Source: Pseudomonadota bacterium (GTDB lineage Bacteria > Pseudomonadota > Gammaproteobacteria > Pseudomonadales > Pseudohongiellaceae). Taken from it: DNA of 64,000 bases. Where the stretch lies: assembly GCA_027621405.1 (NCBI GenBank), contig JAQCBT010000007.1, positions 1-64,000 on the forward strand, in the 5' to 3' direction. The notes below the pieces were generated by a model. The model worked only from the letters and a program-made list of their open reading frames with translations, made no database searches and was not told where the DNA came from. Of the stretch, positions 36,704 to 42,775 are shown piece by piece (position 1 is the stretch's first letter; the number at the start of each line of letters is the position of its first letter). A program made the translations under genes and the position numbers.

Positions 36704-38371
36704 ATGTCTCAGTTCGTCTACACAATGAATCGCGTCGGCAAGATCGTTCCACCTAAACGCGAGATCCTCAAGGATATCTCCCTCTCATTCTTCCCGGGAG
36801 CTAAGATTGGTGTGCTGGGACTCAACGGCGCAGGTAAGTCCACCCTGCTCCGCATCATGGCCGGACTGGATACAGATATAAATGGCGAAGCCCGAGCCCA
36901 GCCAGGCATCAACATCGGCTACCTGCCACAGGAGCCCGAACTGGACGAAGAGAAGGACGTGCGCGGTAACGTGGAGCAGGGAATCAAGGAAGTCATCTCC
37001 CTGGTTGAAGAGTTCAATGCCATCAGCGACAAGTTCGCCGAGCCCATGAGCGACGACGAGATGAATGCACTGCTGGAGAAGCAGGGCGAGTTGCAGAACA
37101 AGATTGACGCCGTGGATGGCTGGCAAATCGAACGCACTCTGGAGATCGCCGCCGATGCCCTGCGCCTCCCGCCCTGGGACGCCAAGGTGGCCAAGCTGTC
37201 CGGTGGTGAGAAGCGCCGGGTCGCTCTCTGCCGACTGCTGTTATCCAAGCCCGACATGTTGCTGCTGGACGAACCCACCAACCACCTGGATGCCGAGAGT
37301 GTCGCCTGGCTGGAGCGCTTCCTGCAGGAGTATCCCGGTACCGTGGTAGCCATTACCCACGACCGCTACTTCCTCGACAACGCGGCGGGCTGGATTCTCG
37401 AACTGGATCGCGGCCACGGCATCCCCTATGAGGGTAACTACAGCGCATGGCTGGAGGCCAAGGAGAAGCGACTGGAAATCGAAGAGAAGCAGGAAGCGGC
37501 GCGGGAGCGCACCATAAAGTCCGAGCTGGAATGGGTACGATCCAATCCCAAGGGCCGCCAGTCCAAGAGCAAGGCTCGTATCGCCCGCTTCGAGGAATTG
37601 AATTCAAGAGACTTCCAGCAGCGCAACGAAACCCAGGAGCTGTATATCCCGCCCGGTGAACGACTGGGCGACAAGGTCATCGAGGTGAATCACCTGAGCA
37701 AGGGCTTCGATGGTCGGGTACTGATCGATGACCTGAGTTTCTCGGTACCCAAGGGCAGTATCGTGGGTATCGTTGGCGGCAACGGCGCGGGCAAGACCAC
37801 CTTCCTGCGCATGCTGGTGGGCAGCGAACAACCGGATAGCGGTTCTATCGAGCTGGGTGAGACCGTTAATCTCGCCTATGTGGACCAGAGTCGTGATGCC
37901 CTGAATGGCGATCACACGGTCTGGGAAGAGATCTCCGATGGCCAGGACATCATCCAGATCGGCAAGTACGAGACCCAGTCCCGTGCCTACGCCAGCCGCT
38001 TCAACTTCCGCGGCAGCGACCAGCAGAAGTTTGTTAAAGACCTCTCCGGCGGTGAGCGCAACCGACTACATATGGCCAAGCTGCTGAAGAAAGGCGGCAA
38101 CGTACTGCTACTGGACGAACCGACCAACGACCTGGACGTGGAAACACTGCGGGCGCTGGAAGAAGCCCTGCTGGCCTTCCCCGGCTGTGCCATCGTGGTA
38201 TCGCATGATCGCTGGTTCCTGGATCGCATCTGCACCCACATCCTGGCGTTTGAAGGCAACAGCCAGGTAGTGTGGCACGAGGGGAACTATTCAGACTACG
38301 AGGCCGAACACAGGAAGCGAGTAGGCGATTCCCAACCCACTCGAATCAAGTACAGAAAACTGGATGGTTAA
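36704..38371 (+). CDS. ettA: Energy-dependent translational throttle protein EttA
   Basis: An ABC-F protein of 555 residues. The ATG at 36704 ([22 protein letters not shown]) is the conserved EttA start; the frame is open upstream without support. Walker A motifs are GLNGAGKST and GGNGAGKTT; signatures are [14 protein letters not shown] and [14 protein letters not shown]; the linker has the long helical arm. It binds the ribosomal E site and gates the first elongation step according to ATP level. It has no membrane domain. Confidence 0.95.
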
Positions 38372-38386
38372 TACTGAGTACTGCCG

Positions 38387-39127
38387 CTAGAGCTTGAGTT
38401 CTGCTCTAAGCCTGGCGATGCGCTCCTTCTGCTCTTCCCTGCTTAAGCTGCGCTCGACCTTCTCGGTCAGCGCAGGCGGCGCTTCGATGTGTAACTCCTT
38501 TCCCTCCACCACCTGTTGGCAGAGCAGCCCGTAGTGGTAATTGAACACCGGGAACGCCTTGCTCTCCGGCTCGTTCGCCAGCATGAACCAGCCTGTAGCC
38601 TTACCGGCGAAGTACACTGCCTCGTGACTCCAGTTCCAGGCCTGCTTCGGTGAGCTGGCCCGGCAGGCCTCTTCATAGGCCTGGCGCGGTGATGGCAGGC
38701 CATACAGGTCAAATCCCTGCTCACAGGCCTTGAGCATGGCAGCGATGGAGGGCAAGTATTCCTGGGTCTTAACCACCCGCTTGGCTGCCTGCACGATGTG
38801 TCTGGGGGAATAATTTTCGAGGCTGCTTAACCAGTACTTCTTGGCAATGACCAGGCTCTCGGCATCGGAAAACGCCTTGTGGAACTGATTGTGATAGGCG
38901 AACTCGAACTCGGCGAACACCTGGTTGATGGCGTCCACCTGGTCCAGGGGCGTTTCCTGCCTGTCGTCAGTTCCAGCCTTACCATAGCGGCCAGCGGGTT
39001 CCACGACTTCGGCCGAGGCTGTTCCACTGGCAGAGTGACTACTCTGCCCAACTGCGGTCAGCGATGCGCTGGAACCTTTCTTTAATTCTTTGCTGGCTTG
39101 TTCCACCAGCGGCTTGATCTTCTGCAT
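38387..39127 (-). CDS. Lambda P-like replication protein, putative helicase loader
   Basis: A 246-residue protein resembling the phage lambda replication protein P family: DQVDAINQVFAEFEFAYHNQFHKAF, VIAKKYWLSSLENYSPRHIVQAAKRVVKTQEYLPSIAAML and LYGLPSPRQAYEEACRAS. P-type proteins bind and deliver the DnaB helicase. The N-terminal 45 residues are low-complexity and overlap the 3' end of the upstream gene by 89 nt in another frame, so a later start is possible. A coiled-coil tail ends EEQKERIARLRAELKL. It converges on ettA with 15 nt between stops. The family call is by eye and should be tested. Confidence 0.65.
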   Translation of the reverse strand: MQKIKPLVEQASKELKKGSSASLTAVGQSSHSASGTASAEVVEPAGRYGKAGTDDRQETPLDQVDAINQVFAEFEFAYHNQFHKAFSDAESLVIAKKYWLSSLENYSPRHIVQAAKRVVKTQEYLPSIAAMLKACEQGFDLYGLPSPRQAYEEACRASSPKQAWNWSHEAVYFAGKATGWFMLANEPESKAFPVFNYHYGLLCQQVVEGKELHIEAPPALTEKVERSLSREEQKERIARLRAELKL

Positions 39128-40187
39128 TGATACTTCGACCGGTTTCCAGGGATTTAAGGCGGCGCGCCCAGTCCTGCTTGATAAACTGCAGGAACACAGT
39201 ATTCCATGAGGCCTTTGCCTGTTGGCTGTCTCGCCAGTACATCACAAATTCGGGTATTTTGCTGCGGGCATAGTTCTCATCGATCTCAGCCAGCTGCAGG
39301 ATTTCGTAGCAATCCATGCTGGGCTGCCAATCGGCGGCGATGGGTCGGGGCGTGTCATCATGCCCGAATGACGCCTTGAACTTGGCCCATTGCCGACGAA
39401 TGTGCTCAATAAACTTCGTATTCCAGGCGCCGTGCACCACACCCCGCTCGCGCCAGTACAGCACAAATTCGGGCACCGCGTCCTCGATAAAATCACGGTT
39501 GATGTCGGCCTTCTCCAATATGTCCAGAGCATCCTGGCTGGGACGCCAGTCCGGTGACATGGTGCTGGCCAGTTCGAATGCACCCTGCCGGGTCTGTTCC
39601 TGGCGCCATTCTTTCAGCACATGCTTGTAGAAGGCATTGCCCCAGGAGAAACGGGCCTGCCCCCGGTCCCGCCAGTAGCTGACAAACTCCGGTACCAGGG
39701 AATGAATGAAGTCATCGGGAATCGCGTGTTGTTTGCAGAGCCGAATCCAGTTGTCGTCCGGTTTCCAGTCTGGAGGAATCTGTCCGGCATTGGACTGGGT
39801 CTGGCGACGACCCGGGGCAGGACTGTTGTTGCTGCTGCCCGGCCTGGCCCGGTGACGGGTCTGGTCGATCGCCAGGTACTGCTTGCCGTCGTGGGCAGTC
39901 TTGAACTGGAGGATTCCCAGGGATTGCAGGCTGCTGCGCACGCGGTCTATGTCCGCTGGCCTCCAGAATGGAAACTGCTCCGCCAACTCAGCGGGCTCCA
40001 CCTCAAGCCAGCGCAGATCTGCACCTGGCTTGATCTGTCCCCGGTGCCTGATCAGCTCCGAGATCACCTGCAACATCACGGTCTCTTCGAGGCCAATGGT
40101 GGCTGCGAGAGTTGGCGAGATAACGATTGGATGTTCTGGCAACACTGTGGAGTAAGCGTCTTGCAGTAGTGACTGGGATCGAAACAT
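39039..40187 (-). CDS. Primosomal DnaT-like protein with three tandem DnaT domains
   Basis: A 382-residue protein. Residues 1-110 look like a winged-helix replication-initiator domain (ISPTLAATIGLEETVMLQVISELI, VRSSLQSLGILQFK). Three repeats of about 62 residues follow at 139-200, 211-272 and 284-345, each with DWxP, a PEFVxYWR core and a terminal W. This pattern matches the DnaT C-terminal domain, which in E. coli DnaT occurs once and binds ssDNA and the helicase loader. A low-complexity linker (111-138) separates the parts. It overlaps the P-like gene, so both probably act together in DnaB loading. Confidence 0.75.
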   Translation of the reverse strand: MFRSQSLLQDAYSTVLPEHPIVISPTLAATIGLEETVMLQVISELIRHRGQIKPGADLRWLEVEPAELAEQFPFWRPADIDRVRSSLQSLGILQFKTAHDGKQYLAIDQTRHRARPGSSNNSPAPGRRQTQSNAGQIPPDWKPDDNWIRLCKQHAIPDDFIHSLVPEFVSYWRDRGQARFSWGNAFYKHVLKEWRQEQTRQGAFELASTMSPDWRPSQDALDILEKADINRDFIEDAVPEFVLYWRERGVVHGAWNTKFIEHIRRQWAKFKASFGHDDTPRPIAADWQPSMDCYEILQLAEIDENYARSKIPEFVMYWRDSQQAKASWNTVFLQFIKQDWARRLKSLETGRSINAEDQAAGGTSQQRIKERFQRIADRSWAE

Positions 40188-41207: not shown

Positions 41208-42293
41208 CTATCCCTGCTCTACCGGCGTACCAAGCGCCGTCTTGTCGCCATCCCTGCCAGCCACCCACTTCCGCCACAGCGGCGCAATCCATACTCGCAA
41301 CACCAGGGCCACCAGCATCATAGCCGCGAGCTGACGCCACAGGGGAACACTGGTGCCATGTTCCGCCATGGAGAGCTGCAGGGGCCAGCCATTGAGCGCA
41401 TAGAGTTGATTCAGTACCAGACCGCAGGCGATAGCTGTGCCGATGACACCGATCAGGTAGGCGATCAGTGATCGCATTCCCAACTGCTCCCTGATCACAC
41501 CCATGGTGGCGATGTTGGTGGCAGGGCCGGTCAGCATGAATACAAGGGCGGCTCCGGGAGAGACGCCCGCAAACAGCAGGCTGGCTGCGACAGGTGTTGA
41601 TGCGGTGGCGCAGATGTACATGGGCAGACCCACCACCACCATGACCAGCATCGCCATCACACCGTCACCCCACTGCAGGAAGAAGGACTGCGGCACAACT
41701 GCTGTGACAATGGCTGCGGCTACAAGACCAATGGTAAGCCACTTCGCGGTATCGGATATCATGCGTCCATAACCGTACTTCACCGCATCGATGAATCGTT
41801 GGGTAAGCGGCGGTGCGGCTACCACTTCCTGCTTCTTCTGGCCGCCGCAGCAATTGCCACAACTCGACGCTGCCTGCTGTACGGGCTCTTCTCTTGTGTC
41901 CAGCACATTAACCAGGCTGCCCGCGATGATCGCGCTGACGAGCGCACCTATGGGCCGCGCGATGGCGAAAATCGGTCCCAGCATCGCGTAGGAGAAGGAA
42001 ATGGAATCTACTCCCGTTTCCGGAGTAGCTACTAAAAAAGAAGACGTGGCACCTTTAGAAGCCCCCGCCTTGCGGATAGCCAGGGCAGTGGGAATGACAC
42101 CACAGGAACACAGGGGCAATGGAGCACCGATGAAGGCACCCTTGACGATGGCAGCGAATCCCCTACCTGAAAGCTGCTTCTCCACCCAGCTACCTGGAAT
42201 CACCTGCTTGATGATCCCGGCCAACAGGTAGCCTAGTAGTAACCAGGGTGCACTCTCTATGACCAGATCCCAGAATATGCTCAGTAATTCCAT
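41208..42293 (-). CDS. Cu/Zn efflux-type permease, SO_0444/YraQ family
   Basis: A 361-residue membrane protein with about eight to ten helices. GSWVEKQLSGRGFAAIVKGAFIGAPLPLCSCGVIPTALAIRKAGASKGATSSFLVATPETGVDS is the family hallmark, including PLCSCG. A cytoplasmic loop holds SSCGNCCGG, a likely metal-binding cluster, as in members annotated as Cu/Zn efflux. The start codon at 42293 overlaps the MerR stop codon by one base (TAATG), so it is translated with the regulator. Zinc or a similar divalent ion is the inferred substrate. Confidence 0.75.
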   Translation of the reverse strand: MELLSIFWDLVIESAPWLLLGYLLAGIIKQVIPGSWVEKQLSGRGFAAIVKGAFIGAPLPLCSCGVIPTALAIRKAGASKGATSSFLVATPETGVDSISFSYAMLGPIFAIARPIGALVSAIIAGSLVNVLDTREEPVQQAASSCGNCCGGQKKQEVVAAPPLTQRFIDAVKYGYGRMISDTAKWLTIGLVAAAIVTAVVPQSFFLQWGDGVMAMLVMVVVGLPMYICATASTPVAASLLFAGVSPGAALVFMLTGPATNIATMGVIREQLGMRSLIAYLIGVIGTAIACGLVLNQLYALNGWPLQLSMAEHGTSVPLWRQLAAMMLVALVLRVWIAPLWRKWVAGRDGDKTALGTPVEQG

Positions 42294-42775
42294 TACGATA
42301 CTCTCCATTCTTGCCATTCTTGACTTTCTTGCCTGTCTTGCGTCTCGTTACCGGCAGTCTCTTCCACCGCCACGTCACCGGCATCCAGCGCCTCGATGAT
42401 CGAACAATGAGTGGCGCTTTCGGGGCCACCGCAGCAACTCTCCAACAGTCGTTCGAGGGTCCGCTGCATGGACTGTAACTCGGCAAGCTTGTCGTTCACC
42501 TCATCCAGCTTGTGGCGGGTGATATCGGTCACCTCCTGGCAACTGTGGCTCTGCTTGTCGAGGCGTATGGACAGTAGCTGACCGATGTCTTCCAGGGAGA
42601 AGCCCATGTTGCGTGCCGTTTTTACGAACTCGGCACGGCGCACATCGGCGGCATTGTAGTAGCGATAACCCGCCGCGCTGCGTTCGCTGGCGCTGATCAG
42701 GCCATGCTTCTCGTAGAAGCGGATGGTATGGGAGGTCAACCCGGTCCGGGCCGCCAACTCGCTGATTTTCATCAT
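42293..42775 (-). CDS. MerR family metal-responsive regulator, ZntR-like
   Basis: A 160-residue MerR protein. The helix-turn-helix is KISELAARTGLTSHTIRFYEKHGLISASERSAAGYRYY, a dimerisation helix follows, and the metal loop ESCCGGPESATHCSIIEAL resembles the ZntR Cys-Cys-His-Cys site. The C-terminal tail (ETQDRQESQEWQEWRVS) is low-complexity. It should activate its own promoter when bound to Zn(II) or a related ion and thereby express the coupled permease. Confidence 0.85.
   Translation of the reverse strand: MMKISELAARTGLTSHTIRFYEKHGLISASERSAAGYRYYNAADVRRAEFVKTARNMGFSLEDIGQLLSIRLDKQSHSCQEVTDITRHKLDEVNDKLAELQSMQRTLERLLESCCGGPESATHCSIIEALDAGDVAVEETAGNETQDRQESQEWQEWRVS

Follow-up and report, generated by a model that had tools for sequence, protein, structure and literature searches.

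Which proteins load the helicase DnaB in this organism is the question raised by two overlapping genes on the minus strand of the window, that is, the whole stretch of 64,000 nucleotides that was analysed. The upstream gene encodes a protein with three DnaT domains, hereafter DopC, and the downstream gene encodes a homologue of phage lambda P, hereafter DopE. The preliminary description had placed both open reading frames (ORFs) within 38387-40187 with an overlap of 89 nt, and both were located there, on the minus strand, as follows.

39039..40187, minus strand: dopC-like gene, 382 aa; winged helix, linker, three tandem DnaT domains and conserved C-terminal peptide (ORF list, three matches to Pfam PF17948, AlphaFold2)
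39852..40136, minus strand: winged-helix domain of DopC, residues about 18-112
39579..39773, minus strand: DnaT domain R1 of DopC, residues 139-203, with Y171-W172
39363..39557, minus strand: DnaT domain R2 of DopC, residues 211-275, with Y244-W245
39144..39335, minus strand: DnaT domain R3 of DopC, residues 285-348, with Y317-W318
39042..39059, minus strand: C-terminal peptide DRSWAE of the dopC product
39039..39127, minus strand: overlap of dopC and dopE in different frames, 89 nt, encoding the conserved DopC tail and the N-terminal stretch of DopE
38387..39127, minus strand: dopE-like gene, 246 aa; lambda P homologue
36704..38371, plus strand: convergent neighbour, which we take from its sequence to be an EttA-type ABC-F gene, with a tblastn match downstream of dopE in relatives

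Elsewhere in the window, a permease gene with a MerR-type regulator before it was recognised by eye at 41208-42775 (minus strand), perhaps a metal-efflux pair.

The Pfam search identified three stretches of the DnaT profile PF17948 in DopC (224.4 bits, cut-off 25; E 9.1e-68) and the lambda P profile PF06992 in DopE (37.6 bits, cut-off 26; E 2.5e-9). Among the PHROGs, DopE matched a 'P-like helicase loader' (E 1e-19) and residues 14-97 of DopC matched a 'DnaD-like helicase loader' (E 5.5e-6), so that the profile searches bore out for both proteins the DnaT and lambda P resemblances first read from the sequence. The three tandem repeats and their motif PEFVxYWR (PEFVSYWR, PEFVLYWR and PEFVMYWR) are present as first described, but the length of 62 residues was not upheld, the domains being 64-65 residues long, at spacings of 72 and 74, on a purpose-built profile. 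In the Pfam scan, neither protein matched PF05258 (DciA) or contained an IstB/AAA+ domain. At E ≤ 1e-3, 448 homologues of DopE and 1887 of DopC were retrieved, and the best 120 listed for each protein include Pseudohongiella, Pseudohongiellaceae and Gammaproteobacteria MAGs. The 89-nt overlap was identical in 65 of 129 compared loci, a set with start codons chosen by script in which the window and its own copy (L006) both count, some genomes occur twice, and L070 and L097 are left out. Because of these many homologues and the recurring overlap, together with the Pfam matches, a chance pair of ORFs or an artefact was ruled out. In L070 (3966-5086) and L097 (3772-5086), dopC lies in two overlapping frames, perhaps owing to a sequencing or assembly frameshift.

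DopE aligned with lambda P over 181 columns in an HMM-HMM comparison, and its model matched DnaB-bound lambda P over 191 residues at 16% identity. It differs from lambda P in being chromosomal and in having a partner that is not detectably an O protein. Searches of solved structures with single sequences gave weak or unrelated matches. DopC/DopE have been described as derived from lambda O and P; the P part of that derivation is supported by profile, HMM-HMM alignment and model, and for the O part no kinship was detectable in the upstream protein. The lambda O profile PF04492, which does detect lambda O and FBPa42 O, matched none of 25 DopC members, and hhalign of lambda O with DopC gave 0.1% and 0.3%, leaving remote kinship beyond detection possible. 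The N-terminal part of DopC was modelled by AlphaFold2 as a winged helix (mean pLDDT 82.6; pTM 0.35, with an unreliable domain arrangement) and matched phage 'primosomal protein I'. The 'Primosomal protein I' of phage mEp460 shares this winged helix with DopC, but no DnaT domain was found in it and no P-like gene in the stretch examined. The 'DnaD-like primosome initiator' of Stenotrophomonas phage QH16 likewise has a winged helix, together with a DnaT domain, but only a single one, and again with no P-like gene in the stretch examined.

The DnaT domains of DopC matched the DnaT fold in the model comparison, and hhalign of the DopC profile with E. coli DnaT gave 83.5% (E 8.3e-6) in R1. According to an excerpt of one study, E. 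coli DnaT is a trimer in solution, and its residues Y127, W128, F135, K133, K143 and R146 matter for binding single-stranded DNA (ssDNA; PMC4132743). The Tyr-Trp pair corresponding to Y127 and W128 is present in all three DopC repeats. K133 aligns with Q, V and Q, and K143 with A, K and V, in R1, R2 and R3, respectively, a lysine being found in R2 only, and F135 and R146 fall at positions unaligned with the repeats. Among 24 other three-repeat proteins, Trp is kept in 21, 24 and 24 and Tyr in 20, 22 and 15 (R1, R2 and R3, respectively), with Phe in the remaining nine of R3; the basic ssDNA positions are kept more weakly than the Tyr-Trp pair. DopC and E. coli DnaT thus have in common the DnaT domain, which is the ssDNA-binding one, the Tyr-Trp pair and the gene order of adaptor then loader (dnaT-dnaC). 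They differ in that the domains are fused in DopC but reside on separate subunits in E. coli, that the N-terminus of DopC is a winged helix, and that the loader beside DopC is of the lambda P type and not AAA+.

In 2017, Brezellec et al. reportedly proposed that DopC/DopE, with an origin from lambda O and P, might be a third type of helicase matchmaker. That class and the present pair both have a lambda P-like gene preceded by a partner gene, in genomes that lack dciA and dnaC/dnaI; the three DnaT domains of the upstream protein and its undetectable kinship to lambda O set the pair apart from the reported derivation. By its P homology, the lack of a DciA or DnaC match and the co-occurrence of the partner genes, the pair is a member of the DopC/DopE class of putative loaders already published. 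An excerpt of PMC13326638 names 'DciA or DopE protein families' in one line. The literature searched, which did not cover the 2017 DopC/DopE paper, yielded no mention of DnaT domains in tandem or of a protein called DopC, and the DnaT content may already have been published.

The assembly containing the window (3.71 Mb, 56 contigs, 99.98% complete) gave no match to DciA (PF05258) in a profile search whose control matched in 7 of 14 genomes. DnaC/IstB (PF01695) gave no match above the cut-off of 24.1 bits; the two below it (23.5 and 20.3 bits) were read by eye as DnaA, with dnaN alongside, and Lon. Within the reach of these profiles, neither loader is thus seen in the genome, and its DnaT domains are confined to the dopC/dopE locus. 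Neither of the outcomes that the preliminary description had named as refuting it, a standard dnaC/dciA beside a dispensable pair or the lack of DnaT and P profile matches, was encountered. Of the 60 genomes of the order with a DciA match, three were inspected for the site of dciA. With names other than lpxC recognised by eye, dciA lies between secA and lpxC (L263), adjoins secA with no lpxC seen there (L264), or lies between lpxC and a peptidase gene before secA (L265). In the genome of the window, a gap of 168 nt separates lpxC (TIGR00325) from a peptidase gene, after which comes secA, and dciA is absent from this stretch. This genome has probably lost the usual helicase loader and kept a domesticated phage-type pair that does its essential job.

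The distribution of the genes was compared in 195 genomes of the same order and 370 genomes of the class. The six-frame probe with PF06992 missed the window's own dopE, although hmmscan of the protein detects it; its zero count is therefore untrustworthy, and the DopE counts rest on alignment A1. In the order sample, DopE, DciA and DnaT were matched in 126, 60 and 125 genomes, respectively, with dopE only in 125, dciA only in 59, both in one and neither in 10, a near-exclusion of dopE and dciA with a Fisher p of 3.7e-38 when kinship is ignored. The 125 DnaT-positive genomes are exactly the dopE-only set. The sole genome with both (G420) has a weak P match (4.4e-17), no DnaT and, by eye, transposase-like ORFs alongside. 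Since families are nearly uniform, independent switches from dciA to dopE may have been few. In the class sample, DopE was found in eight genomes and DciA in 311. Four genomes with DopE at E 1e-36 or better (G000, G158, G251 and G326) and one at 8e-15 (G003) are not DciA-positive, and three (G073, G077 and G146) are positive for both; in a quick DopE tree, the locus of G073 (L010) groups with phage rows and that of G077 (L012) has no sure place. Three genomes outside the order carry a strong dopE, and none of them is DciA-positive. The distribution agrees with the statement, in an excerpt of PMC5109545, that Cellvibrionales is an order without both dciA and dna[CI].

Among the genomes with neither gene, G006 (family f2) and G406 (family f204) possibly contain a divergent DciA, because the DciA matches of their family members are only weak. 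Five genomes of family f197 (G399, G428, G454, G478 and G501; 5.8-6.9 Mb) have no DciA match and 3 to 10 lambda P-type matches each, the extra ones presumably being prophages beside a resident copy.

The EttA-type neighbour was found by tblastn downstream of dopE in 56 of the 67 named loci whose sequence extends for at least 2.5 kb on that side; it was absent from the other 11 (DopE 35-47% identical) and from all 20 loci of other families (L137-L156). The genomic place is therefore kept among near kin only, and the genes are kept far more widely. In ten MAG loci (L110, L111, L115-L121 and L126), some of them with apparent lake names in the record title, no dopC adjoins dopE, and the ettA match is still present in eight and glyA in seven. 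Nine of these ten genomes encode a three-DnaT dopC elsewhere, and none of the ten, which are MAGs of unstated completeness, matches DciA. The tenth, G563 (L116), has dopE with neither a DnaT nor a DciA match and is either an incomplete MAG or a genome with DopE alone. In the DopE tree, L115, titled as a Klebsiella pneumoniae MAG, clusters with nine further MAG loci, and it is probably mislabelled. Inspection by eye revealed no phage genes among the ORFs of the window, in agreement with the observation from which domestication had originally been argued. With the exclusion of dciA in the 195 genomes, the dciA-free lpxC-secA region, the conserved neighbour in near kin and the retention of both genes when apart, the view that the pair is real, conserved and domesticated is supported.

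The overlap encodes two protein ends that are conserved in their own right. DRSWA is found in 49 of 55 selected rows of alignment A4, and the six rows without it (L007, L009, L011, L035, L043 and L049) carry variants such as DKEWA, DHEWA, DRHW, DSSWA and DTSW; D377 and W380 of DopC are invariant in the selected rows. In all nine dopC genes that lie apart from dopE, DRSWA plus one or two residues forms the protein end. Among the ten DopE proteins from loci without dopC, eight start with M-[KQ]-x-[LIV]-[DE]; the remaining two, L110 and L120, fit this pattern except that no M is visible. Both ends are therefore conserved without the overlap. In the DopE model, residues 5-16 form a helix with a pLDDT of 64-68.

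All three DnaT repeats are present in 24 relatives aligned to DopC. In a repeat tree of 64 columns, for which the bootstrap had not settled, the third repeats (25 of 25) cluster together in a 28-member group (95/87) and the first and second are not cleanly parted; the third repeat therefore split off before these families. Judged from these sequences, the repeats are an old set, and a recently expanded array is contradicted by both observations. The number of DnaT domains per genome among the 125 genomes is one in 31, two in six, three in 78, four in nine and six in one, the counts of family f197 being sums over several separate genes. Three domains are therefore not needed for the system as such, given the 31 genomes with a single one. 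The locus architectures comprise a winged helix with three DnaT domains and a winged helix with one, the profile having missed the helix in L137 and L145. Others are proteins of about 145-180 residues that contain one DnaT domain, proteins with two weak DnaT domains but lacking a winged helix, and proteins with four. In family f206, the dopC frame of L028, L037, L040 and L152 has 206-260 residues, and the profile detects in it two weak DnaT domains but not the winged helix; L021 and L025 of the same family have the full form. In the DopE tree, a quick method with long-branch warnings, the winged-helix loci with one DnaT domain form one group, including the misplaced-looking L012, the short one-DnaT loci form a separate group (7 rows, 99), and a third group of 119 rows has mostly three DnaT domains and includes L007-L009 and L011 from outside the order.

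No phage combining three DnaT domains with a P gene was found among the viral loci examined: of 106 confirmed viral DopE loci, 80 were kept, five with one adjoining DnaT domain and 75 with none. Coverage of DopC stayed below 80% in every record of the annotated phages. Five viral contigs (L177-L181) carry a gene with two DnaT domains on the purpose-built profile and no P-like gene, and in L178-L181 the genes that follow it resemble those of Mu by eye; tandem DnaT domains therefore also occur in phages.

Considering these results, we propose that the pair replaces DciA in this organism, with DopE opening DnaB and DopC placing it, a reading to which we assign a probability of roughly 0.8. A DnaB-loader function is likely in view of the match of DopE to lambda P, the lack of a DciA or DnaC match, the near-exclusion of dciA, and the co-occurrence and co-retention of dopC and dopE; DnaB loading itself is what we infer from them. 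Counting against this reading are the poorly kept basic ssDNA residues, the 31 genomes with a single DnaT domain, the unreliable domain arrangement in the DopC model, the genome with dopE but no DnaT match (G563), a neighbour conserved among near kin only, and a near-exclusion statistic that takes no account of phylogeny. DopE would bind DnaB and open its ring as lambda P does; the site of action of lambda P and of DnaC is the exterior of the DnaB ring (PMC9825169). DopC would then place DnaB, its winged helix binding DNA or an initiator. The C-terminal domains of E. coli DnaT form a filament with a nucleotide pair at each domain interface (PMC13377028, excerpt), and the three fused domains of DopC may amount to a prefabricated short segment of such a filament and wrap a few nucleotides of ssDNA. 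The DRSWA tail, the start helix of DopE, or both may hold DopC and DopE together or dock on DnaB. Initiation at oriC together with DnaA and the restart of forks together with PriA would both be expected tasks of the pair.

Alternatively, the pair might serve fork restart only, acting like DnaT with PriA, and loading at oriC would be left to DnaA alone, DnaB itself or an unrecognised loader. The DnaT domain is indeed known from restart (excerpts of PMC13377028 and PMC4132743), and the adaptor-then-loader order of E. coli dnaT-dnaC is the same; however, what is missing where dopE is present is the general loader DciA, and we regard a role confined to restart as improbable. SPP1 G39P has been described as a loader/inhibitor. 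DopE matches it in sequence and model, although G39P is a phage protein of which only the G39P domain matches, and the Pfam profile Inhibitor_G39P gave 14.4 bits in DopE, below the cut-off of 22. The pair could on this basis be a domesticated restrainer of DnaB, for a checkpoint or against phages; this would leave unexplained why DopE stands in for dciA, and we consider it very unlikely. A prophage remnant or cargo pair without a cell function, to which P-like genes in 18 of 50,697 phage records (tblastn) and in the viral loci kept, winged-helix or DnaT genes in 26 phage records and a neighbourhood not conserved outside near kin might point, is scarcely credible and is rejected mainly on distribution, dopE being present in 125 of the 135 order-sample genomes without a DciA match, with a DopE identity of at least 55% throughout the best 120 of 448 homologues, both genes retained when apart and no phage genes seen in the window, and with synteny (the 56 of 67 loci) arguing against it only among near kin.

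Returning to replacement of DciA by the pair, we tentatively suggest that DopC could be a covalent, preassembled DnaT filament that replaces the oligomerisation of DnaT, and perhaps the PriB hand-off, so that one protein would serve initiation and restart. The shared order of a DnaT-domain gene followed by a loader gene suggests that dnaT-dnaC and dopC-dopE might have been domesticated in parallel from one phage-type module made up of a DnaT-domain adaptor and a loader, with different loaders plugged in; this too is put forward as a possibility that we rate below even odds. The pair strengthens the case for a third helicase-loading route, neither DciA nor AAA+, across much of one gammaproteobacterial order. 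It also predicts, in a form testable against the 2026 structures of the E. coli preprimosome, that DopC is a DnaT filament in a single chain and carries a docking peptide at its C-terminus. The main interest of the locus lies in this testable filament idea and in the parallel with dnaT-dnaC.
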